From Acidimicrobiales bacterium (lineage in GTDB: Bacteria > Actinomycetota > Acidimicrobiia > Acidimicrobiales > MedAcidi-G1), in NCBI GenBank assembly GCA_014237715.1, contig JAAZZG010000005.1, forward strand, positions 94,391 to 158,390: a stretch of DNA of 64,000 nucleotides, in the 5' to 3' direction. The notes under the pieces were generated by a model. That model was given only the letters and a program-made list of their open reading frames with translations. It searched no databases and was not told the DNA's origin. This document shows positions 2,895 through 22,726 of the stretch, piece by piece. The position numbers were made by a program, and so were the translations under genes. Positions within the stretch are counted from its first letter, which is position 1. Each line of letters opens with the position of its first letter.

Positions 2895-2922
2895 TATCCG
2901 GTTCGGGTGTCGGACCCGGATA
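2895..2922. terminator. Inverted repeat between rho and rpmE
   Basis: TATCCGG and CCGGATA are separated by 14 nt in the 95-base gap between the end of rho and the start of rpmE. There is no T run, so it may be a weak terminator or an RNA-stabilising hairpin. Confidence 0.3.
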
Positions 2923-2927
2923 GCCGT

Positions 2928-4685
2928 TCAGTCGCCCATGCTCGGTCCCTTGGCGATCTCTACCAGGAACTCCTCGTTGTTGTTGAAGGTCTTGAGTCGG
3001 TCGATGAGTAGTTCGAGACCGGCCGCCGCACCGCTGCCGTCGTTGGCCAGGCCGTTGAGCACCCGACGCAACTTCCACACCTGGTTCAGCTGCTGGCGTT
3101 CGAACAGGAGCTCTTCGTGCCGGGTCGACGAGGCGTCCACGTCAATGGCCGGATAGATCCGACGTTCGGCAATCCGACGATCCAGACGGAGCTCCATGTT
3201 TCCGGTGCCCTTGAACTCCTCGAAGATCACCTCGTCCATCTTGGAGCCCGTGTCGACCAGCGCCGTGGCCAGGACGGTCAGCGAACCGCCCTCCTCTAGG
3301 TTCCGAGCCGCACCGAAGAACCGCTTCGGCGGATAGAGCGCACCGCTGTCCACCCCACCGGACATGATCCGACCGGTAGCCGGGGCAGCCAGGTTGTAGG
3401 CCCTCGACAGTCGGGTGATCCCGTCCAGGACGATCACCACGTCGTCGCCGTACTCCACCATGCGCTTGGCCCGCTCGATGGTGACCTCGGCCAACTGGGT
3501 GTGCTCATCGCTGGGACGATCGAACGTGGATCCAACTACCTCGCCGCGCTGCAACCAGCGCTTCATATCGGTGACCTCCTCGGGACGCTCGTCGACCAGC
3601 AGGACGATGAGCTTCACCTCGGGATGGTTGGTCTCGATGGACCGCACGATCGACTTCATGATCGTGGTCTTGCCCGCCTTGGGGGGCGACACGATCATGC
3701 CGCGCTGGCCCTTGCCGATCGGCGAGAGCAGGTCGATGATGCGGGCCGTCATGTTGGTCGGGTCGCCGTCGACCTCCATGCGGAGCTTCTCGTCGGGGAA
3801 CAGAGGGGTGAGATCCTCGAACTTGGGTCGGCTCTTGGCCAGCTCGGGATCCCGCCCGTTGACTTTGTCGATACGCAACAGGGCCGGGTTCTTCTCGCTG
3901 CGGTTGGCCGGTCGGGATGCCCCGATCAGGTGGTCCCCCCGGCGCAGGCTGAACTGGCGGACCTGCTTGACCGAGATGTAGGCGTCGTTCTTGGACGGCT
4001 TGTAGCCGCCGGTCCGGAGGAAGCCGTAGCCCTCGTCACGGAGGTCGAGGTGACCCTCGATCTCGACGGGCTCACCGTCCCAGACCTCTTCGGGACCACT
4101 CGGCTGGTCACGCTCGCGGCCCCGACGGCGGCGGCGGCGGTTGCCGGGGTCGGCGGTGTCCCCTTGTCCGTCACGGTTCTGGCCACCCTGACGGTCACGG
4201 TTCTGGCCACCCTGCTGTCCACCCTGACGGCCGCCCTGACGGTCACGGTTCTGACCACCCTGACGGTCGCGATTCTGGCCACCCTGACCACGACCACCGT
4301 CACGACCCGACTTCTGGTCGCCGGAGCGGTCGGCATCGGCTTCCGTGCTGGTCTCTGCGTTGGCTTCTGCGCTGGCATCCGAGTTGGCGGACTGGTCACC
4401 ATCGGTGCCCGCTGTCTCCTCGGCCTCGGCAGCCACCTCCCACTCGGCCGGCGGCTCCTCCGCAAACTCCTCAGCAGGGGCCACAGGCTCGGCGGCAACG
4501 GTAGGAGGCCGTCCACCGTTGGAGGACGAACCATTGCCTCCGCCGGACAGATCCAGGATCAGGTCGACGATCTCAGCCTTGCGTGCACGCGAACCGGGCT
4601 TGCCGCCCAGCGCGGTGGCGATCGTCGTCAACTCGTCGCGGTCCTTGCTTTCCAGCGTTCCGCGTTCCAGTTGGGTGGAGTCCAT
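2928..4685 (-). CDS. rho: Transcription termination factor Rho with a long glycine/arginine-rich insertion
   Basis: Rho is the hexameric RNA-dependent ATPase that ends transcription. The 585-residue protein has an N-terminal Rho_N helix domain (about residues 1-45), then an acidic and Gly/Asn/Arg/Gln-rich stretch to about residue 200 of the kind seen in high-GC actinobacterial Rho, a cold-shock-type RNA-binding domain ([18 protein letters not shown], near residue 225), and the ATPase with Walker A PPKAGKTT near residue 335, [10 protein letters not shown], and the Q/R-loop region. The ATG chosen starts MDSTQLERG; the frame is open for 71 more codons upstream, but third positions there are only about 65% G/C, so that part is judged to be leader. 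Confidence 0.95.
4165..4290. repeat. Degenerate in-frame repeats inside rho
   Basis: Copies of a roughly 24-base unit encode GGQNRDRQ and shorter GGQ/GGRQ variants within the disordered RNA-binding insertion of Rho. The unit number probably varies between relatives. It is coding sequence and not a CRISPR array. Confidence 0.75.
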
Positions 4686-9006: not shown

Positions 9007-10320
9007 TCAGGACCCGGATTCGACCGTTTCATCCCCGGGCCCCGGGGCCGGGGCATCGCGGGCCACCAGATCGTCGAACGTCTCGCGCCGGACGACCTCA
9101 CGAGCTTCGCCGTCGGCGACGAAGACCACGGCGGGACGCAGGACGTGATTGTAGTTAGAGCCCATGGAGTGGCCGTAGGCGCCGGTGACCGGCGTGGCCA
9201 GCACGTCGCCCACCGTCAGATCCTCGGGCACCCAGCCCTCGCGCACCAGAAGGTCACCCGACTCGCAGTGCTTGCCCACCACCCGAACGGCCCGGGGGCG
9301 CTCGGCGGCGGCGGAGCGGGGCAACAGGGTCTCGTAGCCCGAGCCGTAGAGGACCGGGCGGGGGTTGTCGCTCATTCCGCCGTCCACGGCGACATAGGTG
9401 CGGATGCCCGGCAGGTCCTTGACGGTGCCCACCCGGTAGAGGGTGACCGCCGCAGCGGCCACGATGGCCCGCCCAGGCTCAGCCGAGACGTGGGCTGTCA
9501 CGCCTGCCGCGTCGCACACGGCACGGATGCCGGCGGCCCATTCGGTCAGCGTGGGTGCCGACTCTCCCTCCACGTAGGGCACACCGAGGCCGCCACCCAC
9601 CGAGAGCTCCGGCAGGCCGAACGGCGCGGCGAAGTCGGCCAGCACCTCGACGGCCCGGGCGAAAGCCCCGACCTCGAAGACCTGGCTGCCGATGTGGGCG
9701 TGCAGCCCGACCAGCTCGACCGATTCGGTCCTGACGGCCCGCTCCACGGCCGCCAGGGCCAGACCGCTGGACACGGTGAAGCCGAACTTGGAATCGTCCT
9801 GACCGGTGGTCACGAACTCGTGGGTGTGGGCCTCCACGCCGGGCGTGATGCGTAGCAGTACCCGGGGTCGGGCGCCGGTGGCGACCGCAAGAGCATCGAG
9901 GCGGTCCAGTTCGTCGAACGAGTCGACGACAATGCGACCCACCCCCTCCTCGACCGCCATGGCCAACTCACGGTCACTCTTGTTGTTGCCATGCATGACG
10001 AGACGTTCACCGGGCACCCCTGCGTGGCGGGCGACGAAGAGTTCGCCACCTGTGGCCACGTCGAGGTGCATGCCCTCCTCGTAGGCCAGGCGGGCCATGG
10101 CCCCACAAAGGAAAGCCTTGGAGGCGTAGGCCACGCCATCGCCGAATGCGACCACGGCCTCGCGACAGCGGGCCCGCAGGTGGTCCTCGTCGTAGACGAA
10201 CAGAGGCGTGCCGAACTGGTCGGCCAGATCCACGAGGTCGCAGCCACCGATGGACAGCCGGCCGTCATCGGCAACGTCCGCCGTGTCGGGCAGGAGATGG
10301 GCGGAGATGGGACCGGCCAT
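9007..10320 (-). CDS. lysA: Diaminopimelate decarboxylase
   Basis: The enzyme decarboxylates meso-diaminopimelate to lysine, the last step of the pathway. The 437-residue protein shows the PLP lysine in VAYASKAFLCGAM, the HGNNKSDREL and SVGGGLGVPY segments of the alanine-racemase-like barrel, and the active-site CESGD. The chosen ATG lies 2 bases after the argS stop codon, so argS and lysA are one coupled unit, an arrangement common in Actinobacteria. An in-frame start 13 codons farther up would overlap argS and is less likely. Confidence 0.95.
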   Translation of the reverse strand: MAGPISAHLLPDTADVADDGRLSIGGCDLVDLADQFGTPLFVYDEDHLRARCREAVVAFGDGVAYASKAFLCGAMARLAYEEGMHLDVATGGELFVARHAGVPGERLVMHGNNKSDRELAMAVEEGVGRIVVDSFDELDRLDALAVATGARPRVLLRITPGVEAHTHEFVTTGQDDSKFGFTVSSGLALAAVERAVRTESVELVGLHAHIGSQVFEVGAFARAVEVLADFAAPFGLPELSVGGGLGVPYVEGESAPTLTEWAAGIRAVCDAAGVTAHVSAEPGRAIVAAAAVTLYRVGTVKDLPGIRTYVAVDGGMSDNPRPVLYGSGYETLLPRSAAAERPRAVRVVGKHCESGDLLVREGWVPEDLTVGDVLATPVTGAYGHSMGSNYNHVLRPAVVFVADGEAREVVRRETFDDLVARDAPAPGPGDETVESGS

Positions 10321-14316: not shown

Positions 14317-14398
14317 TCGGCGTCCACATGGAGAGGCCGGATTGGCTACGGTCGCGCCTACGGCGGACCGCTGGGGACGCCACTCGACAGGAGGACCC

Positions 14399-15469
14399 AT
14401 GAAGATCCGATCTCTGCTCACCATTCTGCTGGCACTGGTGCTCGTCGCCTCGGCCTGCTCAGACGACGGAGAGTCCGCAGCCGCCGGCGACGGAACCTGG
14501 CCCGACAAGATCACGATGGGCTTCGTGCCGAGCTCGGAGCAGGAGTCGCTCCAAGACGACATCCGGCCCATCATGGACGTGCTGAGCGCGGACCTGGGGA
14601 TCGAGGTGGAGGGAGTTGTCACCACCGACTACACCGGCCTTGTCACTGCCCTGGGCACCGGGAAGGCCGACCTGGGCGCCTTCGGGCCCTTCGGCTACGT
14701 GCTGGCCCAGCAGCAGTTCGGCAACATGGAGGTGCTGATCCAAGCCATCCGCTACGGCTCTGCGACCTATCACGGCCAGTGGATGACCAACGATCCCTCG
14801 CTGTGCGACACAGCACCCGAGTCAGCCACTGCTCTCGAGAACACTGCTGATGGCGTGGCACAGGTCGGCGCACTGGATGCGGTGGCCCTTCAGGTCGGCG
14901 TGTACTTCGGCGACGCTGGCAAGGCCCTCGGCGAGACGGTGGACGACGGCGACATATCACCGGGCACCTCGTGCATGGCCGACCTTTCCAAGGTCAAGGG
15001 CAAGCGTGTGGCCTTTACGTCCGAGTCGTCGACCTCGGGCTACCTGTTCCCGGCGCTGCAGCTAATCGAGGCGGGCATCGACCCGGTGAACGACATCACA
15101 CCAATATTCACCGGAGGCCACGACGCCGCGGTGGTGGCCGTCTACAACGGCGATGCCGACATCGGCGTGTCCTACGACGACGCCCGCCGAACTCTCCGCA
15201 AGGAGAAGTTGGACGTGGGCGACAAGGTGATCGTGTTCAACATCACCTCGGAGGTACCCAACGACGTGATCGCCGCCAGCTCACTGCTGCCCGACTCGCT
15301 GCAGAAGGCCATCTACAACTCCATCGCTGCCTTCCTCGATACCGAAGAGGGCGAAGCAGCGTGGGACGAGGCCTACGGTTGGACGTCGATCCGCCCGGCC
15401 GTCGACTCGGACTTCGACGTGGTTCGCGCTGCCGCCGAGGCCCTGGGCATCACCGAACCCCTGGGCTGA
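14399..15469 (+). CDS. phnD: Phosphonate/phosphite-type ABC transporter substrate-binding lipoprotein
   Basis: The 356-residue protein has a lipoprotein signal peptide (LLALVLVASAC, Cys near residue 19) and the PhnD fold: ITMGFVPSSEQESL, DYTGLVTALGTGKADLGAFG, and the ligand-loop region KRVAFTSESSTSGYLFP. The Ser/Ser/Thr/Ser cluster is typical of oxyanion-binding members that take phosphonates, phosphite or phosphate. AGGAGG stands 5 nt before the ATG. It heads an operon with an ATPase, two permeases and a ROK kinase. No C-P lyase genes are present, so the ligand is uncertain. Confidence 0.92.
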   Translation: MKIRSLLTILLALVLVASACSDDGESAAAGDGTWPDKITMGFVPSSEQESLQDDIRPIMDVLSADLGIEVEGVVTTDYTGLVTALGTGKADLGAFGPFGYVLAQQQFGNMEVLIQAIRYGSATYHGQWMTNDPSLCDTAPESATALENTADGVAQVGALDAVALQVGVYFGDAGKALGETVDDGDISPGTSCMADLSKVKGKRVAFTSESSTSGYLFPALQLIEAGIDPVNDITPIFTGGHDAAVVAVYNGDADIGVSYDDARRTLRKEKLDVGDKVIVFNITSEVPNDVIAASSLLPDSLQKAIYNSIAAFLDTEEGEAAWDEAYGWTSIRPAVDSDFDVVRAAAEALGITEPLG

Positions 15470-15525
15470 CCCCTACCTATCCGAAACGCAGAAGCCTGAC
15501 GGCCACGACGGACGAACCTGACCGG

Positions 15526-16296
15526 GTGATTGAATTCCGAGACGTCTCGGTTACCTACCGAGGCGGGGTCAGGGCGTTACGCAACGTCGATCTCACGATC
15601 GACGACGGCGAGTTCGTCGTGGTTGTCGGCCTCTCCGGGGCCGGCAAGAGCACGCTGTTGCGGGCCATGAACGGCCTGATCCCTGCTACCGGAGGATCGA
15701 TCACGGTGGGTGGCACCGAGGTGGTGGGCGCCAGCAACGCTGAACTGCGCGACGTTCGGTCACGCATAGGAATGATCTTCCAGACGTTCAACCTGGTGCA
15801 CCGCACCTCAGTGATGAACAACGTCCTGATGGGTCGCCTGGCCGGTGTGCCGGCGTGGCGGTCCACCCTCGGGATGTGGCCGGCCACTGACCGCGAGGCC
15901 GCCATGGCCGCGCTCGAACGGGTGGGGATCGTGGAGAAGGCCTATGTCCGGGCCTCGAACCTGTCAGGTGGACAGCAGCAGCGGGTGGGCATCGCCCGGG
16001 CCCTGGCCCAGGAACCGTCGGTCATGCTGGCCGACGAACCAGTGGCCGCCCTCGACCCGGTGACCAGTCGTCAGGTGATGGGCGACCTCCAACGGATCAA
16101 CCTGGACCTCGGAATCACCACGCTGGTCAACCTCCACTTCCTGGACCTGGCCCGTGAGTTCGGGCGACGTCTGGTGGGCCTCCGGGAGGGAGAAGTGGTG
16201 TTCGACGGAGACATCGACGACGTCACCGATGAGACCTTCCGGGAGATCTACGGACGGGCCATCACCGTCGACGACCTGAAGACCGCCGACGGGTGA
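15526..16296 (+). CDS. phnC: Phosphonate-type ABC transporter ATP-binding protein
   Basis: The 256-residue ATPase shows Walker A GLSGAGKST, the Q-loop IFQTFNLV, signature LSGGQQQRV, Walker B VMLADEP, and the late H-loop in LVNLHFLDLA, as in PhnC. The GTG start giving MIEFRDVSVTY was chosen because it fits the family N-terminus; the frame remains open upstream. It starts 56 bases after phnD and its stop overlaps the start of the first permease (GTGA). Confidence 0.93.
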   Translation: MIEFRDVSVTYRGGVRALRNVDLTIDDGEFVVVVGLSGAGKSTLLRAMNGLIPATGGSITVGGTEVVGASNAELRDVRSRIGMIFQTFNLVHRTSVMNNVLMGRLAGVPAWRSTLGMWPATDREAAMAALERVGIVEKAYVRASNLSGGQQQRVGIARALAQEPSVMLADEPVAALDPVTSRQVMGDLQRINLDLGITTLVNLHFLDLAREFGRRLVGLREGEVVFDGDIDDVTDETFREIYGRAITVDDLKTADG

Positions 16297-17132
16297 ACCC
16301 GCCGCCTACCGCTGGATCGGCCGTCGGGCCGGTTGACGAACAGGCCACCGGTCAGATCCGACCGACCCGGCCCCGGGTACGACGTCGGACCTGGGTGGCG
16401 GCCGTCCTGGTCGTGGCCTACACCCTGGTGGCCGGTCGAACCGTCGGCTTCGACCTGTCCACGTTCTGGCAGGTCTGGTCCAACCCCCTGTGGGAGAAGT
16501 TCTGGCCCATCCCATGGGGCTGGGTCCTGGATCGTCACAACGTGCTCGACCCATTGGTCGAAACGTTCCAGATCGCCATCGTCTCGACGCTGATCGGTTG
16601 CGGTCTGGCCCTGCCGCTGGCCTTCGCCATGTCGCCACTGACCGCGCCCAACCGGGTAGTGCTCGTGGTGAGCCGTTCGATCATGAACGTGGTGCGGGCC
16701 GTGCCCGACCTGTTCTGGGCAAAACTGCTGGTCACCGCGGTGGGCATCGGTGCCTTCGCCGGCTCGTGGGCCCTGTCGGTCTTCTCCCTGGCCGTCATGG
16801 TCAAGTTGTTCAGCGAGACGGTCGACGGTGCCGACCCCCGCCCGCTGGAGGCCGCCCGGGCGGCCGGCGGGCGACACATGCCCGTGGTGCGGACCGGAGT
16901 CCTACCCACCGTTCTCCCTGAGTATGTGGCCTACGGGCTCTACGTGTTCGAGTTGAACATCCGGGCCTCGGTGGTCCTCGGTCTAGTCGGGGCCGGCGGC
17001 ATCGGTCGCGTGGTGGAGGCCCAACGCCAGTACTTCCGCTTCGACCGGGTGCTGGGCGTGCTCGTGCTGGTGTTTGTGGTGGTGTTCGTGATTGAACAGG
17101 TCAGCATGGCTGTCCGGAAGCGGTTGGTCTGA
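16293..17132 (+). CDS. phnE: Phosphonate-type ABC transporter permease, first copy
   Basis: The 279-residue protein has an Arg/Pro-rich cytoplasmic N-terminus, about six membrane helices, and the BPD permease EAA-like loop (ETVDGADPRPLEAARAAGG) that contacts PhnC. VVLGLVGAGGIGRVV is the usual PhnE ending motif. Start and phnC stop overlap as GTGA, indicating coupled translation. It probably pairs with the next permease as a heterodimer. Confidence 0.92.
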   Translation: MNPPPTAGSAVGPVDEQATGQIRPTRPRVRRRTWVAAVLVVAYTLVAGRTVGFDLSTFWQVWSNPLWEKFWPIPWGWVLDRHNVLDPLVETFQIAIVSTLIGCGLALPLAFAMSPLTAPNRVVLVVSRSIMNVVRAVPDLFWAKLLVTAVGIGAFAGSWALSVFSLAVMVKLFSETVDGADPRPLEAARAAGGRHMPVVRTGVLPTVLPEYVAYGLYVFELNIRASVVLGLVGAGGIGRVVEAQRQYFRFDRVLGVLVLVFVVVFVIEQVSMAVRKRLV

Positions 17133-17134
17133 CG

Positions 17135-18028
17135 GTGGTTGCAACCCCGACCACCGTGGAGGCCGCCGGGCGTCCGATCGCCCCCCGGCGGGCAGGCCGA
17201 CGATGGACGCTCGTGGTGGTGGTTGCCGTTGCCGTTGCGTGGTCGATCTCTGGCCTCGAGGTCACGATGGATCGCCTGCTGGGTGCGCCGGGTGACGCCT
17301 GGGACGTGTTCCGACGCATGGTTCCGCCGGCCTTCGGTGAGGCCGTCGACCGCGGGGTGCCCGGCAAGGTCCTCGAATCGGTGCACATCGCCTGGATCGG
17401 CACCCTGATCGGGGCGGTGCTCTCGCTGCCTCTGGCCTTCCTGGCGGCCGGCAACGTGGCGCCGGTCTGGATCCGGACTCCGGTCCGCCAGCTCTTTAAC
17501 GTCATCCGGGCCGTCCCCGAGTTGATTCTGGCCGTCATCCTCATCCCCATCACCGGCCTGGGTCCGTGGGCCGGTGCGCTGGCCATCGGCGTGCACTCGG
17601 TGGGAACGCTGGGCAAGTGGGCCACCGAGGCCATCGAGGGCGTGGATCCCGGGCCACTGGAAGCCGTGGCGGCCACCGGTGGGCGGTGGGTGTCAGGCAT
17701 GCGGTGGGGGGTGCTCCCCCAGGTACTTCCGGTGGTGACGTCGCAGTGGTTGTTCCGCTTCGAGATCAATGTCCGGGCTTCCGCGGTGTTGGGCATGATC
17801 GGTGCCGGCGGGGTGGGTTCGGAACTGGTGTCCCAACTGGTGTTTCGGAACTTCCCGGCGGTGGGCGCCGTGCTGGCCATGACCATCGTCGTGGTGCTGG
17901 CCATCGACACCGCCTCGGCCGCCGTCCGGCGACGGATCATCCGGGGAGCGGTCTCGGGGGTCGACGAGGGCGAGGCCGACCGCAACGCGGCGGTGTTGAC
18001 CGACCTGACCGGGATACGAACCCCTTGA
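17135..18028 (+). CDS. phnE: Phosphonate-type ABC transporter permease, second copy
   Basis: The 297-residue paralogue of the preceding gene starts with GTG two bases after it. It has the same helix pattern, the coupling loop (EAIEGVDPGPLEAVAATGG), and VLGMIGAGGVGSEL near the end. Two PhnE proteins side by side are common in phosphonate and phosphite importers. Its stop codon overlaps the TTG start of the ROK kinase, so the kinase is made together with the transporter. Confidence 0.92.
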   Translation: MVATPTTVEAAGRPIAPRRAGRRWTLVVVVAVAVAWSISGLEVTMDRLLGAPGDAWDVFRRMVPPAFGEAVDRGVPGKVLESVHIAWIGTLIGAVLSLPLAFLAAGNVAPVWIRTPVRQLFNVIRAVPELILAVILIPITGLGPWAGALAIGVHSVGTLGKWATEAIEGVDPGPLEAVAATGGRWVSGMRWGVLPQVLPVVTSQWLFRFEINVRASAVLGMIGAGGVGSELVSQLVFRNFPAVGAVLAMTIVVVLAIDTASAAVRRRIIRGAVSGVDEGEADRNAAVLTDLTGIRTP

Positions 18029-18954
18029 CCGCCGCTGGGCTGGCCACCATTGGGCTGGACGTTGGCGGCACCAAGGCCGCCGCGGTGCTCGTCGACCCAA
18101 TAACGGGCACGGTCCTGGATCGGGAACGGGCGTCCAGTGCCGGATCGGCCGAGAATCTCGTGACCACCCTGACCGATCTCGTCGAAACCCTCCGGGCGCG
18201 CTCGACCGGTCTTCACGTGGAGGTGGGCGCCGTGGGCCTGGGGATCGCTGGCCTGGTGGACCGTGACGGCATGGTCCGGTGGTCGCCCAACCTGCCGGCA
18301 GCCGTGGGCCATCCGGTGGCCGCCGATCTGGCGGGCGGTAGCGGGCTCCCGGTGGCCGCCACCAACGACGCCACGGCAGCCACCCTGGCCGAATCCCGCC
18401 TCGGTGCCGGCCGGGGCTGCGACGACGTCGCTCTGGTCACCCTGGGCACCGGTATCGGCGCCGGGTTCGTGGTCGACGGACGACTATTGCGGGGTGCCCA
18501 CGGGTTCGCCGGTGAGCCGGGCCACATGGTGGTCGATCCGGGCGGCCCCGAGCATCTGACCGGACAGCGGGGTCCATGGGAGGCCTTGGCGTCAGGCAAC
18601 GCCCTGAGTCGGATGGCCGCTGAGGCTGGCTTCGGCTCGGGGACCGCTGTGGTGGCCGCCATGGCCGCTGACGACTCCAGGGCGGCCGACGTGTTTGACC
18701 GGTGGTGCCGGGAGGTAGCACAGGGGCTGGCCAACCTGGTGGTCATGCTGGACAGTCGACGGATCGTGCTGGGCGGCGGTCTCGTCGAAGTCGGCGAGCC
18801 GTTGCGGCTCGGCGTGGCGTCGTGGTTGGAACGGTTGACCCCGGGTGCCGACTCGCGACCTGCCGTCGAGGTGGTCCTAGCCGAGCTGGGGTCCGACGCC
18901 GGTGCACTGGGTGCCGGCCTACTTGCCGGCGACCTGCTGTCGGACGACGACTGA
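18025..18954 (+). CDS. ROK-family sugar kinase without the zinc-binding cysteines
   Basis: The 309-residue protein has the ASKHA ATP motif IGLDVGGTKAAAVL, the catalytic Asp region (ATNDATAA), and LGTGIGAGFVVDGRLL. ROK kinases normally have a CxCGxxGCxE zinc motif after GH; here GHMVV is followed by EHLTGQRGPWE, so His, Thr and Pro replace the cysteines while the final Glu remains. A TTG start overlaps the phnE stop (TTGA). Glucose or N-acetyl sugars are typical substrates, but its coupling to a phosphonate-type transporter suggests another sugar-like or phospho compound; this is inference. Confidence 0.85.
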   Translation: MTAAGLATIGLDVGGTKAAAVLVDPITGTVLDRERASSAGSAENLVTTLTDLVETLRARSTGLHVEVGAVGLGIAGLVDRDGMVRWSPNLPAAVGHPVAADLAGGSGLPVAATNDATAATLAESRLGAGRGCDDVALVTLGTGIGAGFVVDGRLLRGAHGFAGEPGHMVVDPGGPEHLTGQRGPWEALASGNALSRMAAEAGFGSGTAVVAAMAADDSRAADVFDRWCREVAQGLANLVVMLDSRRIVLGGGLVEVGEPLRLGVASWLERLTPGADSRPAVEVVLAELGSDAGALGAGLLAGDLLSDDD

Positions 18955-18986
18955 CGCCGGCCCCGATATCTGGTGGACGCTCCCGA

Positions 18987-19718
18987 CTACAGGTGGGCGT
19001 CTAGCAGGGCGAGGGTGCGGGTCCAGGCGAGGGCGGCCGCGTCGGCGTCGTAGGTGCCGAACGGGTCCTCCTCGTTGGCGAACGGATGCCCTGTCCCCTC
19101 GTAGACGTGGAAGGTCACGTCCCGACCCATGGTCCGGAGGTCGTCACCCAGGGCCAGCACGTCTTCGATCGGGAAGAAGTCGTCGTGTTCGGCCATGTGG
19201 CCCTCGACCACCGCCGTCAACCCGGACCAGTCCATGTCGAATTGTTCTCGACCGAGTGGCGCCCCGTAGAACGGCGCCGCTGCAGCCACCCGGTCACCCT
19301 CGAGGGCGGCGATCAGCAGGGTGAGCATTCCGCCCATGCAGAAGCCGACCACCCCGACGGCGTCACCGTTGGTGGCGTCGTGGTCCAGCAGGTGGTCGAT
19401 GGCCGCCGACATGTCCCGAGCGGCCCGGTCCGGCGGTAGCGAGGTCATCAGCTCCCCGGCCTTGTCCATCTCCGTGTGCTCGGCGAACTCGCCGTGGTAG
19501 AGGTCGGGGGCGAGAGCCACGAAGCCCTCACCGGCCAGGCGATCACAGACCCCCCGGATCTGGGGCACCAGTCCCCACCATTCCTGGATCACGAGCACCC
19601 CGGGCCCCGAGCCCGACGCTGGAACGGCGAGGTAGCCCCCAGCCGTCGACCCGTTCGCCGCGAACTCCACCGGCTCGCCGGCACGCTCTGGGTCCCGGTC
19701 ACCCTGAGTATCGATCAT
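18987..19718 (-). CDS. Dienelactone hydrolase family protein
   Basis: The 243-residue alpha/beta hydrolase has the DLH triad: nucleophile Cys in GVVGFCMGGML, Asp in EHDDFFP, and His in GTGHPFANE, together with the N-terminal Glu of VLVIQEWWGL. Known members open dienelactones; many relatives have unknown ester substrates. The ATG follows nrtR by 5 bases with AAGGAG upstream, so it is probably co-transcribed with and controlled by that regulator, tying it to the adjacent NAD/ADP-ribose-like module. Confidence 0.88.
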   Translation of the reverse strand: MIDTQGDRDPERAGEPVEFAANGSTAGGYLAVPASGSGPGVLVIQEWWGLVPQIRGVCDRLAGEGFVALAPDLYHGEFAEHTEMDKAGELMTSLPPDRAARDMSAAIDHLLDHDATNGDAVGVVGFCMGGMLTLLIAALEGDRVAAAAPFYGAPLGREQFDMDWSGLTAVVEGHMAEHDDFFPIEDVLALGDDLRTMGRDVTFHVYEGTGHPFANEEDPFGTYDADAAALAWTRTLALLDAHL

Positions 19719-19723
19719 CGGTC

Positions 19724-20599
19724 CTACTCCTTCTCGCCCGCCTGCTCGTCCGGTTCCTGATTGTCGGATTCGACCAGCCACGACGGATAGTCATCGCTGG
19801 ATCGGCTTCGGGGGGGCGGCATTGCCCTCGACTCCGATCTCATGGCCAGGAACGGCTGCTCGAGCCTTGAGACTTCACCAGCCGAGAAGAGGGCCGCCGG
19901 CCGTCCTCTGGAGCCACTCGGGTCGGTGGTCCGCCCAAGGTCCCGCACGAAGTCCGGCTCGGACCGCACCTTTCGCTGGAAGTTGCCCTGATCGAACTCG
20001 GTCCCCCACACCGCCTCGTACACCCGCCGTAGTTGCCTGATGGTGAACTCGGGAGGACAGAAGCGGCTGGCCTCCGTCGAGTACTCCAACCTCGACCTGG
20101 CCCGGTCGACAGCATCCAAGACGATGGTCCGGTGGTCGAAGGCCAGCTTCCGCTCCTCCCGCTCGATCTCGACCACGGGAACGAGAGCGGCCTCAGCTGC
20201 ATCGCCCCCACCGGCCAGGTCCCCTACGTCGGCCTGGATCGTCCAGTAGGCGACGGTCACCACCCGCATCCTCGGATCCCGATCCGGCTCCCCGTAGGTC
20301 CGGAGTTGCTCGAGCTTGTCGGGCTTCAGGCCGAGCTTCGTCTCCTCGGCCAACTCCCGACGCGCAGCTTCTCTAGGAGCCTCATCTGGGCGGACAAACC
20401 CGCCGGGCAGCGCCCAGCGATCCCTGAATGGAGACTCGCCCCGCCGCACCAGGACCACCTGGAGCACGTCGTCGACGATGGTGAACACCACCACGTCGGC
20501 CGTGACCGCGAACGGAGGGTATGCGGAAGGGTCGTAATCGCTCAGTGACGAATCGCCTGAGCCATCGCCGTCCGTGATATTTATGTCAGGGGTTGACAT
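19724..20599 (-). CDS. nrtR: NrtR-type Nudix-winged-helix regulator
   Basis: The 291-residue protein has a Nudix domain (about residues 30-150) with a nearly complete Nudix box, GGFVRPDEAPREAARREL then AEETKL, in which the usual Gly is Lys, and a C-terminal winged helix (FTIRQLRRVYEAVWG, NFQRKV). This layout is that of NrtR, a repressor of NAD metabolism genes that senses ADP-ribose or NAD. A polar, acidic tail of about 70 residues follows. AGGAGA lies before the ATG. It is divergent from the vWA/ARPP-1 pair, and a palindrome covers its own start codon, so autoregulation is likely. Confidence 0.87.
   Translation of the reverse strand: MSTPDINITDGDGSGDSSLSDYDPSAYPPFAVTADVVVFTIVDDVLQVVLVRRGESPFRDRWALPGGFVRPDEAPREAARRELAEETKLGLKPDKLEQLRTYGEPDRDPRMRVVTVAYWTIQADVGDLAGGGDAAEAALVPVVEIEREERKLAFDHRTIVLDAVDRARSRLEYSTEASRFCPPEFTIRQLRRVYEAVWGTEFDQGNFQRKVRSEPDFVRDLGRTTDPSGSRGRPAALFSAGEVSRLEQPFLAMRSESRAMPPPRSRSSDDYPSWLVESDNQEPDEQAGEKE
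20583..20599. promoter_or_regulatory. Candidate NrtR operator
   Basis: A perfect palindrome with arms ATGTCA and TGACAT around a 5-base centre covers the nrtR start codon and the -35 box of the divergent promoter. Three further TGTCA or TGACA pentamers occur up to 20700. Confidence 0.5.
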
Positions 20600-20620
20600 T
20601 ATTAACTAGTCTCCTATATA
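20593..20620 (+). promoter_or_regulatory. Promoter of the vWA/ARPP-1 pair
   Basis: TTGACA and TATATA are 16 nt apart in an unusually A/T-rich patch. This is the strongest sigma70-like promoter I saw in the window. It gives a leader of roughly 130 nt and its -35 box lies inside the candidate operator. Confidence 0.6.
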
Positions 20621-20760
20621 GTGATCTTGACACAATATAGAACATCTACACACCCGACATCAACATGGACTGTCACAGGGGTTCGGTAAAACAGGTGTCA
20701 GGAACGGGAACCCAGATCGGGTCCCGGTCAGGAATAAGGAAGAAAGAGCAGGACACACAC

Positions 20761-21570
20761 ATGACGACGAATGAAACCTACATCGCACGGCTCCGCAAGT
20801 TGATCGCCGAGGCACCCGACGGCCTCGACGTCGGCTCGCTGGAGGTCGCCCTGGCATCGGCCGAGGCCGCCCTCGCCAGCTCGGACTCCACCGGTGACCG
20901 CACCAAGATCTGGTTCCTGCTGGACCGCTCCGGGTCCATGGGCCACCTGACCGGCGACGTGATCGGTGGGTTCAACGAATTCCTGAAGCAGCAGAAGGCC
21001 CAGCCGGGGAAGGCCCGGATGTCGGTCGTCCTGTTCGACGGCCAGAATCCCTACGAGGTGGTGGTAGACGGCCGCCGCATCACCGAGGTTCCGGCGTTGA
21101 CGCCCGCCGTCTACCGGGCCCGAAGCTCCACCCCCCTGTTTGACGCCCTGGGTACCCTCCTGGGGCAAGCCGACCAGAGGATCGCCCAGCGCGCCGAGAC
21201 CGGCCGGAAGGCAGAGGACCAGCTGGTCCTTATCTTCACCGACGGCCACGAGAACGCCTCGAGACGATTCGACCGGGCCCGGATCTTCGAGATGATCAAG
21301 GATCGTCAGGACGCCGGCAACTGGACCTTCGTGTTCATGGGCGCCAACCAGGACTCCTACGCGGCGGGCGGTGGCGTCGGTTTCGGCGACGGCAACATCC
21401 AGGACTTCGCCGCCACCTCGGCCAGCGTGCACGACTCGTTCTCGGAGTTCACACGTAGCACGGTTGCTTACCGGGGCAAGCCCAGGCGCCAGCGGATGCA
21501 CGACCGGCACGACTTCTTCGAGGGCCAGAAGCTCGCCGAACAGGCTCTCAGGGAGCAAGACCGGAACTGA
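20761..21570 (+). CDS. von Willebrand factor A domain protein
   Basis: The 269-residue protein has a short helical N-terminus (about 47 residues) and a vWA domain with the MIDAS motif DRSGSM at Asp55, the conserved Thr in RSSTPLFDAL, and the Asp of LIFTDGHENASRRF. No signal peptide is present, so it acts in the cytoplasm. vWA proteins of this kind often bind Mg2+ and a partner protein. It is divergent from nrtR and followed by the ARPP-1 gene, and I infer that the two act together. The ATG follows a purine-rich AAGGAAGAAAGAGCAGGA stretch. Confidence 0.85.
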   Translation: MTTNETYIARLRKLIAEAPDGLDVGSLEVALASAEAALASSDSTGDRTKIWFLLDRSGSMGHLTGDVIGGFNEFLKQQKAQPGKARMSVVLFDGQNPYEVVVDGRRITEVPALTPAVYRARSSTPLFDALGTLLGQADQRIAQRAETGRKAEDQLVLIFTDGHENASRRFDRARIFEMIKDRQDAGNWTFVFMGANQDSYAAGGGVGFGDGNIQDFAATSASVHDSFSEFTRSTVAYRGKPRRQRMHDRHDFFEGQKLAEQALREQDRN

Positions 21571-21590
21571 TCGGGCCTCCCCGAGGGCAG

Positions 21591-21618
21591 GCCGGTCGGG
21601 TCGACGGACCCGGCCGGC
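21591..21618 (+). terminator. Strong hairpin between the vWA and ARPP-1 genes
   Basis: A 12-pair stem (one G-U pair) with a GACG loop lies in the 115-base gap between the two genes. It lacks a T run. It may partly terminate, or stabilise the upstream mRNA, which would give different levels of the two proteins. Confidence 0.55.
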
Positions 21619-21685
21619 GGCCTTCCCCCCTCCCACACACCACTAGCCGCACGGCTGACCAGCACAACCGACAAGAGGAAACACC

Positions 21686-22585
21686 TTGACCATCACCCCG
21701 CTCGACTCCGCCCCCATCGGGCCGCCCATCACCCGTGGTGGCATCTCGATCTACCCCATCTACCTACCCGGCAACGCCCTGCCCCCCATCGGCACCGGAC
21801 GGGAATCCGGCCTGACCATCGACGAACTACCCGACGCCCAGGTCCCCCACCTGGTGGTCCACAACCCCACCGACCAACCCATCCTGATCGTCGAGGGCGA
21901 GCAGTTCGTGGGCGGACGCCAGAACCGCACCGCCAACGCCAGCGTGCTGGTGCCAGCCGGCGAAACGCGAGAGATCCCCGTCTCGTGCCTCGAGGTGGGC
22001 CGCTGGGGTCAACACCGGGCCTTCGAGCACGCCCCGACCTTCACCCCCCGCCGGGTGCGCCGTACCAAGCAGCGCGAGGTGGCCCGGAGCATGGTCGAGG
22101 CCGGCGTGCGGTCCGGTGACCAGCAGCAAGTCTGGCAAGCCATCCAGGTCGAAATGAACAGCATGGCTGCACCGTCGAGCACCGGAGCGATGGCAGATGC
22201 CGACCAGGTCTTCGCACGAGACGGACACCGCCAGGCCGCCGTAGACGAGTTGGTGACCCGTGGACCGCTCACCGGCCAGTGCGGCATCATCGTGGCCCAC
22301 GGCTGGCGGGCCATAGCTGCCGAGGTATTCGGCTCTCCTGAACTGCTGGCCGCCCACTGGGGCCCGTTGGTGCGTTCGCACCTGCTGGAGCACCCCACAG
22401 CCACCGGTCAACGGTCCGCCACCGGCGCCATGAAGCTGCTTCGGCGCTTCGCCGAAGCCAAGTCAGTGGACTCCCCCGGCCTCGGCCTGGGCACCGAACA
22501 CCACGTGAACGCCGAGCGGGTCACGGGGCAGGCCCTGACCCTGGACGGAGCGTTGGTTCACGCAGGGATCTTCCGGCGGGGCTGA
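21686..22585 (+). CDS. ARPP-1 domain protein (DUF6569)
   Basis: The 299-residue protein carries the ARPP-1 domain, named for association with ADP-ribosylglycohydrolase and rhodanese-phosphatase proteins in computational surveys of NAD-linked systems. Visible signatures are ILIVEGEQFVGGRQNRTAN, the SVLVPAGETREIPVSC strand pair, and EVGRWG. To my knowledge no biochemical activity has been shown. A TTG start has AGAGGAA 6 nt upstream. Its place beside an NrtR regulator and a vWA protein matches the predicted NAD/ADP-ribose theme. It has no signal peptide or membrane segment. Confidence 0.85.
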   Translation: MTITPLDSAPIGPPITRGGISIYPIYLPGNALPPIGTGRESGLTIDELPDAQVPHLVVHNPTDQPILIVEGEQFVGGRQNRTANASVLVPAGETREIPVSCLEVGRWGQHRAFEHAPTFTPRRVRRTKQREVARSMVEAGVRSGDQQQVWQAIQVEMNSMAAPSSTGAMADADQVFARDGHRQAAVDELVTRGPLTGQCGIIVAHGWRAIAAEVFGSPELLAAHWGPLVRSHLLEHPTATGQRSATGAMKLLRRFAEAKSVDSPGLGLGTEHHVNAERVTGQALTLDGALVHAGIFRRG

Positions 22586-22634
22586 TCCCATCAGGCCCGC
22601 CGATACCCGCCGGTGGGGCCATGGAGCGGTCCGG

Positions 22635-22640
22635 TAACCT
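22635..22640 (+). promoter_or_regulatory. -10 box of tRNA-Arg
   Basis: TAACCT stands 11 nt before the first base of the tRNA. Confidence 0.45.
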
Positions 22641-22651
22641 GACCCGTCCCA

Positions 22652-22726
22652 GCCCCTGTAGCTCAGCGGATAGAGCATCGGCTTCCGGAGCCGTGTGCAC
22701 AGGTTCGAGTCCTGTCAGGGGCGCCA
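22652..22726 (+). tRNA. tRNA-Arg(CCG)
   Basis: A 75-base cloverleaf folds with a perfect 7-pair acceptor stem (GCCCCTG with CAGGGGC), a 4-pair D stem, a 5-position anticodon stem with a T-T at its outer end, loop TTCCGGA with anticodon CCG, and T loop TTCGAGT. Discriminator G73 and the CCA end are encoded. It reads CGG codons. No integrase or repeated 3' end is nearby, so it is not a used attachment site here. Confidence 0.95.

Follow-up and report, generated by a model that had tools for sequence, protein, structure and literature searches.

The window analysed here is a 64,000-nucleotide stretch of contig JAAZZG010000005.1 from an Acidimicrobiales bacterium, whose assembly (genome G000) is a 2.33-Mb draft with an estimated completeness of 92.6%. 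It holds a module of three genes, in which nrtR diverges from genes for a vWA protein and an ARPP-1 protein (hereafter ARPP). The NrtR-like repressor is encoded on the minus strand (19724-20599) and matches both the NUDIX (71.7 bits) and the NrtR_WHD (49.1 bits) families of Pfam. A divergent control region (20600-20760) separates it from the vWA gene (20761-21570, plus strand), the product of which has a helical N-terminus and a PF00092 match of 33.6 bits against a cut-off of 23.8. The ARPP gene follows (PF20208, DUF6569; 21686-22585, plus strand), its product scoring 214.2 bits against a cut-off of 27 and covering profile positions 4-296 of 297. The slot that contains these genes is bounded by a tRNA-Arg(CCG) gene (22652-22726, plus strand; located by ARAGORN at 9043-9117 of the locus, L014, and converted to window coordinates) and, on the nrtR side, by a gene for a dienelactone hydrolase family protein (DLH; 18987-19718, minus strand, ATG start; PF01738, 167.7 bits), a flanking chromosomal gene that lies outside the module. 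The original prediction joined DLH to the other three genes, with 5 bases between nrtR and DLH. The four open reading frames (ORFs) are indeed at their predicted places and strands, as seen from an ORF check and from Pfam, which names each of them, and the 5-base spacing is correct, with DLH starting at 19718. Of the divergent layout, the opposition of NrtR to vWA–ARPP is conserved among relatives, but DLH is not conserved with the module.

The repressor is the only NrtR_WHD match in its genome. Its sequence matches in the PDB are 2fml and 3gz5 (labelled MutT/nudix), the second of which we take to be an NrtR, and 5bs6, an AraR. Against the NCBIfam equivalog for ADPR-responsive NtrR (NF050029) it scores 109.1 bits, below the cut-off of 400. 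Like the NrtR regulators of NAD metabolism, it combines a Nudix domain with an NrtR winged helix and diverges from its presumed targets; unlike them, it neighbours vWA–ARPP and not nadABC. In Mycobacterium smegmatis, NAD synthesis is under the control of NrtR, whose DNA binding is disrupted by ADP-ribose (available part of PMC6800001, eLife 2019).

The control region contains a sigma-70-like site (TTGACA-18-TATAGT, 11/12 match) at 20593-20622, which is directed to vWA–ARPP and begins within the first codons of nrtR. A scan of 18900-22720 returned two promoter-like sites, against a shuffle mean of 0.4, and no terminator-like site. TTGACA and TATAGT, equally spaced, can be read by eye in relatives such as G011. 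In relatives, a 29-base dyad, GACAAKAAC-N11-GTTATWGTC, overlaps the -35 and -10 elements of the promoter of vWA or of an ADP-ribosylglycohydrolase gene (ARG, PF03747), which suggests repression through this candidate operator. With three mismatches or fewer it occurs in 15 of 26 intergenic regions, where 0/200 shuffles matched as well, although the pattern was derived from these same 26 regions, several of them from close kin, so that its support in other loci is partly circular. The best matches in G014 and G012 each have five mismatches, equalled by 5/200 and 1/200 shuffles, respectively. The dyad differs from the mycobacterial NrtR operator, GTTTTCGA-N7-TCGAAAAC (available part of PMC6800001).

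In an alignment of six vWA proteins the MIDAS of the window's protein is complete, comprising D55-x-S57-x-S59, T124 and D161. The AlphaFold model of the window's vWA protein (pLDDT 77.9) has vWA domains as its top Foldseek matches (E ~1e-6). The model of ARPP has a pLDDT of 82.6 and a pTM of 0.86, with residues 102-114, right after C101, below 50; a Foldseek search with it against the PDB and BFVD gave nothing at E 0.001 or better, and a profile search of PDB sequences gave one chance-level row (E 0.34). Invariant among 15 aligned ARPPs are E72, G76-G77, Q79-N80-R81, N84, C101, E103 and G105-R106-W107-G108. C101 and Q79, identical in 15/15, are probably the absolutely conserved cysteine and glutamine described for ARPP, which was suggested to act on ribose, possibly via the cysteine (available part of PMC9503650). 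The window's protein resembles ARPP-1/DUF6569 in its full-length match and in these two residues, but differs in its setting, since it stands with NrtR and vWA and without ARG, and in another family it shares one frame with vWA. No experimental paper reporting an activity for ARPP was found in the literature searched, most subscription journals being outside its reach, in agreement with the original prediction, which knew of no experimental description of the gene set.

The NrtR–vWA–ARPP module across genomes

Neighbourhoods were surveyed with nine profiles built from slot and ARPP loci, applied to 5 kb around ARPP in three sets: 12 loci of relatives, 38 loci at the class level (34 genomes) and 32 at the phylum level (31 genomes). 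At the phylum level 41 genomes had a match; G750, G519, G711, G447 and G746 were left out, and the rest were already sampled or were G038, whose weak match, below the cut-off and with two stops, was dropped. Of the 32 phylum loci, 31 lie above the ARPP threshold and one, L187, lies below it. The class loci are partly gene fragments at contig ends, and flanks of 2 kb or more on each side exist for 26/38, so that the neighbour counts are lower bounds.

NrtR occurs within 5 kb of ARPP in 7/12 loci of relatives, 15/38 class loci and 2/31 phylum loci, and in all 24 loci that have it nearby it is on the strand opposite to ARPP. The corresponding counts for vWA are 7/12, 16/38 and 1/31. The linkage of ARPP to both genes, which the original prediction proposed to survey, was found in seven of the 12 loci of relatives and 10 of the 38 class loci, but it is rare at the phylum level. 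In five of the former and all 10 of the latter there is no ARG within 5 kb. At the class level the trio is present in two families, and in one of them vWA and ARPP are fused: at nine of the 38 class loci, representing eight genomes in two genera of one other family, one open frame of 505-576 codons contains matches to both. In one such protein (L127), Pfam places VWA at residues 41-200 and ARPP-1 at 276-561; at L133 the vWA start is in a different frame. This fusion is good evidence, at the level of sequence, that vWA and ARPP act together.

ARPP is also seen in other settings. At L019, L020, L022 and L025, all from one genus of the window's own family, it lies beside glycolysis-type genes (pgk, tpiA and glpK, named by eye), with NrtR and vWA absent nearby. 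Among 72,556 plasmid records, three carry ARPP, and these ARPPs are distant. Two of the records (L191/L192) are the Pimelobacter plasmid pA-N39, with the order ARPP, hypothetical gene, ARG and RecB-like nuclease, and a Granulicella plasmid, on which a DUF6569 protein is followed a few genes on by a VWA protein and a PP2C phosphatase.

Alternative occupants of a tRNA-Arg slot

The surroundings of the module were compared in 12 ARPP loci from 12 genomes and 20 further loci from relatives, chosen for a DLH or ARG match, onto which reference proteins were mapped. The genus shares a frame of genes (names read from sequence) in which one flank consists of PhnE1, PhnE2, ROK and DLH, and the opposite flank of FrhB and a UDG-like gene. 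In the window, phosphonate-type ABC transporter genes and a ROK-family gene at ~14385-18954 (named by eye) make up the conserved flank. The tRNA-Arg(CCG) gene was found in 17 of the 23 loci scanned with ARAGORN, exactly the 17 that hold DLH or FrhB; the scan left out L100, a second DLH copy of G006. The module sits between DLH and this tRNA gene.

The slot could be read in 14 of 17 same-genus genomes, the window's own included (G005, G008 and G016 were unreadable), and its content falls into three states. Four genomes (G000, G002, G012 and G014) hold NrtR|vWA–ARPP. Another four hold NrtR with ARG genes, namely G004, G011, G015, where DLH is off the contig, and G010, where the slot is partial, with NrtR, no vWA, and ARG in two frames. 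The ARG gene of G010 spans two overlapping frames (L087 1612-2584), by decay or by assembly error. In the other six (G001, G003, G006, G007, G009 and G013) the slot lacks the module, and the distance from tRNA to DLH is 193-595 bases, versus 2919-3153 where vWA–ARPP is present; the widest of these empty slots, that of G006, contains its own 130-codon ORF. G007 has an empty slot but carries NrtR|vWA–ARPP on another contig (L023), and its tRNA–DLH–ROK part is inverted inside the frame. Where ARG occupies the slot, the cassette is reversed relative to the flanks, with nrtR toward the tRNA. The slot also accepts other genes, since in the outgroup G020 it holds 3.65 kb (L104 3632-7283) with agmatinase-like and ATP-grasp-like genes, named by eye.

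Among close relatives, therefore, one tRNA-flanked slot holds the vWA–ARPP cassette, an ARG-containing form, or neither. When the flanks of 13 genomes are concatenated, their tree interleaves the two forms: G004 (ARG) is sister to G012 (vWA–ARPP) with support of 1.0, and G011 (ARG) joins G014, G000 and G002, all with vWA–ARPP (0.927). In the NrtR tree the two forms come apart: the repressors of G000, G012 and G014 fall together (0.904; 0.919 with G007), and those from ARG slots or ARG loci (G004, G010, G011, G015, G021 and G029) stand apart with support of 0.963. Parsimony on the flank tree, judged by eye, requires at least two changes between ARG and ARPP. No convincing integration repeats were found at the slot edges in L014 and L088.

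The same comparison bears on the status of the hydrolase. DLH lies beside the module in four same-genus genomes, and only via the shared slot; it adjoins the same tRNA-Arg in the six genomes that have no module there, and it is retained in outgroups too. Its gap to nrtR is 5 bases in G000 and G002, 142 in G012 and dependent on the start codon in G014, and in G004, G010 and G011 ARG stands between the two. Because the gap varies and DLH lies beyond ARG in ARG slots, DLH does not travel with nrtR, and none of the 38 class-level ARPP loci has a DLH match within 5 kb. Synteny rejects it as a member of the module. A part in the pathway, as suggested for the Cys-His-Asp hydrolase, is not borne out, and of the four genes once grouped together, DLH is the one whose linkage is not conserved in related genomes.

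The link to ADP-ribose

Iyer, Burroughs, Anantharaman and Aravind (2022, Viruses 14:1977, PMC9503650) predicted ARG-centred systems that counter ADP-ribosylation. In the available part of that work, the systems draw on ARPP, nucleases, phosphatases and chaperones, vWA among them, and on repressors whose sensor is a Nudix or WYL domain; such repressors are found in >42% of systems, and a rhodanese/DSP-phosphatase (R-P) or other phosphatase in a little over 55%. Other two-gene contexts described there for ARPP involve HIRAN, WYL and PF01522. The window resembles these systems in its Nudix-sensor repressor, its vWA protein, a predicted chaperone, its ARPP and the variable gene sets, and relatives of the window add R-P phosphatase, ARG and nuclease-like genes. 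It differs in lacking the core ARG, of which no match exists in its genome (PF03747, five candidates scored, in a draft 92.6% complete) or within 5 kb of ARPP, and in lacking any match within 5 kb to the R-P and DSP phosphatase profiles, the only phosphatase types profiled. The Nudix-regulated ARG/vWA/ARPP theme is thus an already published prediction (available part of PMC9503650). The vWA–ARPP fusion and the slot exchange have no mention in that part of its text, though its figures or supplements could show the fusion; neither these two nor the ARG-less trio were found in the literature searched.

The relatives bring the module close to ARG. Within its own family, L015 has nrtR opposite an ARG–vWA fusion, an R-P–ARG fusion and ARPP, and L021 has nrtR opposite an ARG–vWA fusion, ARPP, a DSP phosphatase, a histone deacetylase (HDAC)-type gene and a PD-(D/E)XK gene. 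With ARG and rhodanese/DSP phosphatase in the same slot or cluster of relatives, the conserved unit of nrtR, vWA and ARPP belongs in an ADP-ribose setting; to this extent the original prediction of an NAD- or ADP-ribose-linked module is supported, but the hydrolase is no member of it. The ARG part of the ARG–vWA fusions (L015 6740-7537, L086 5838-6650, L088, L089, L090, L021 and L102) lacks the TDDT motif in 7/7 and retains a second motif, DTDT, while the R-P–ARG proteins keep TDDT in 6/6. Both motifs are presumably metal-binding in ARG. The loss of TDDT makes it likely that the ARG half of these fusions is a pseudo-enzyme that binds ADP-ribose and does not cleave it.

Other genes recur in these neighbourhoods. 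Genes of the histone-deacetylase fold lie beside ARPP, ARG or DSP phosphatase (L021 5708-6595, by Pfam; L023 9-728; L095; L096; L097; L102; L103; L120 9885-10769), and their products could act on acetylated ADP-ribose. A conserved protein encoded 3' of the ARG/ARPP genes (L015 1407-2471 and L021 7344-8390) appears PD-(D/E)XK nuclease-like by eye, the L021 copy being without a Pfam match. On a 5.2-kb contig from a record titled Vicinamibacterales (L113), vWA, ARPP and a PD-(D/E)XK-type gene homologous to L021 6553-7284 are consecutive, by transfer or misbinning. When nine proteins were compared with the PADLOC defence families, the sole match was that of NrtR, and it was weak (PDC-S07, 31.4 bits).

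The trio occurs without ARG within 5 kb in 14 genomes, nine of which (G000, G002, G007, G260, G337, G313, G228, G363 and G198) have no PF03747 match at all. Among 17 ARPP genomes checked together, 10 likewise had no ARG match.

Competing explanations and their weight

The interpretation that we favour, at a probability of roughly 57%, is that the trio is a predicted ARG-less, ADP-ribose-induced branch of the ARG-centred systems, in which ARPP does the local chemistry. NrtR would keep the divergent promoter off until free ADP-ribose or a related fragment rises and binds its Nudix domain, upon which NrtR would release the DNA, and vWA and ARPP would be made. The vWA protein would bind polypeptides via its metal site, plausibly ADP-ribosylated or misfolded ones, and would hand them to ARPP. 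ARPP, in turn, would use its invariant Cys/Glu/Gln/Asn/Arg cluster to act on the ADP-ribose or the ribose portion. The repression and ligand of NrtR, the clients of vWA and the chemistry of ARPP are what we infer from these gene contexts and residues. Where a genome lacks ARG, the catalytic role in the cassette would fall to ARPP, perhaps aided by a Macro-domain protein encoded elsewhere. A stronger proposal would make ARPP a new class of enzyme that processes ADP-ribose or ribose adducts and is able to replace ARG, NrtR|vWA–ARPP a self-sufficient minimal system that swaps with the ARG form in one slot, and the ARG domain of the ARG–vWA fusions, with its first metal motif lost, only a reader of ADP-ribose; taken together, these claims are doubtful.

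Several observations weigh against the favoured interpretation. ARG is present elsewhere in five of the 14 trio genomes (G012, G014, G192, G410 and G371), and all 14 are multi-contig drafts in which an ARG gene may be missed. Macro domains are another known kind of ADP-ribose hydrolase, and a Macro-domain gene lies elsewhere in the window's own genome and in 9/11 further trio genomes checked, including all seven checked ARG-less ones (its own and six others; G002 and G007 were outside the check). The presence of Macro genes in ARG-less genomes means that ARPP need not be the cell's only ADP-ribose enzyme, which slightly lowers the odds that it is the sole catalyst. The relatives' dyad is not detectable in the window, where the best match has six mismatches and is equalled by 24/200 shuffles, and an NrtR operator shared with them is not supported there. 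Neither NrtR nor vWA is near ARPP in five of the 12 loci of relatives (L018, L019, L020, L022 and L025, the last cut by a contig end), and most phylum ARPP loci are partnerless, with NrtR in two, vWA in one and ARG in three of 31; the role of ARPP may be broader than the cassette. There is no direct link to phages, because no ARPP was found by tblastn in 50,697 phage records, nor in IMG/VR by a search of limited reach that used two short peptide patterns.

Among the trio genomes checked, ARG and Macro look partly complementary: the seven ARG-less ones all have Macro, G012 and G014 have ARG but no Macro, and G192, G410 and G371 have both.

A possible, if unlikely, alternative is that NrtR–vWA–ARPP serves in housekeeping, in NAD metabolism or in the handling of sugar damage, with ARPP scavenging or repairing a ribose-containing metabolite such as free ADP-ribose or a glycation product, and with no protein adduct and no role in conflict. 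The ADP-ribose-responsive NrtR of M. smegmatis, which governs NAD synthesis (available part of PMC6800001), speaks for it, as do the phylum's mostly partnerless ARPPs (29/31 loci without NrtR, 30/31 without vWA) and the lack of ARPP in phage records or, by the two peptide patterns, in IMG/VR. Presence, absence and exchange in one slot within a genus would, however, be unusual for housekeeping genes, and the PD-(D/E)XK gene and phosphatases alongside the module in relatives are those of the conflict-system prediction (available part of PMC9503650). Decay of an ARG-centred system, leaving a remnant that has lost its main enzyme and has little function left, is improbable: although ARG–vWA and R-P–ARG occur at other loci in the same slot, and the slot of G010 has only NrtR and a two-frame ARG without vWA, the three ORFs of the window are intact, as are the MIDAS and the invariant residues of ARPP, and the trio is kept in two class-level families and fused, as vWA–ARPP, in one. 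Very improbable is a four-gene pathway, in which ARPP would make or release an ester or lactone intermediate for DLH to cleave. The co-directional nrtR and DLH with their 5-base gap in the window and G002, and a possible overlap in G014 depending on the start codon, would suit it, but such a pathway would have to accommodate a hydrolase that is kept without the module in six same-genus genomes and in outgroups, lies beyond ARG in three ARG slots, is 142 bases from nrtR in G012 and is absent within 5 kb of ARPP throughout the class set.

An ARPP that occurs in genomes without an ARG match, stands by an ADP-ribose-type repressor and is fused to vWA in some of them reduces the system to a minimal pair of proteins, open to expression and assay. 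Such a unit makes the 2022 prediction (available part of PMC9503650) directly testable, and it suggests that in some of these systems the essential catalyst may be ARPP and not ARG. Close relatives, for their part, provide natural variants of the same system at the tRNA-Arg slot.

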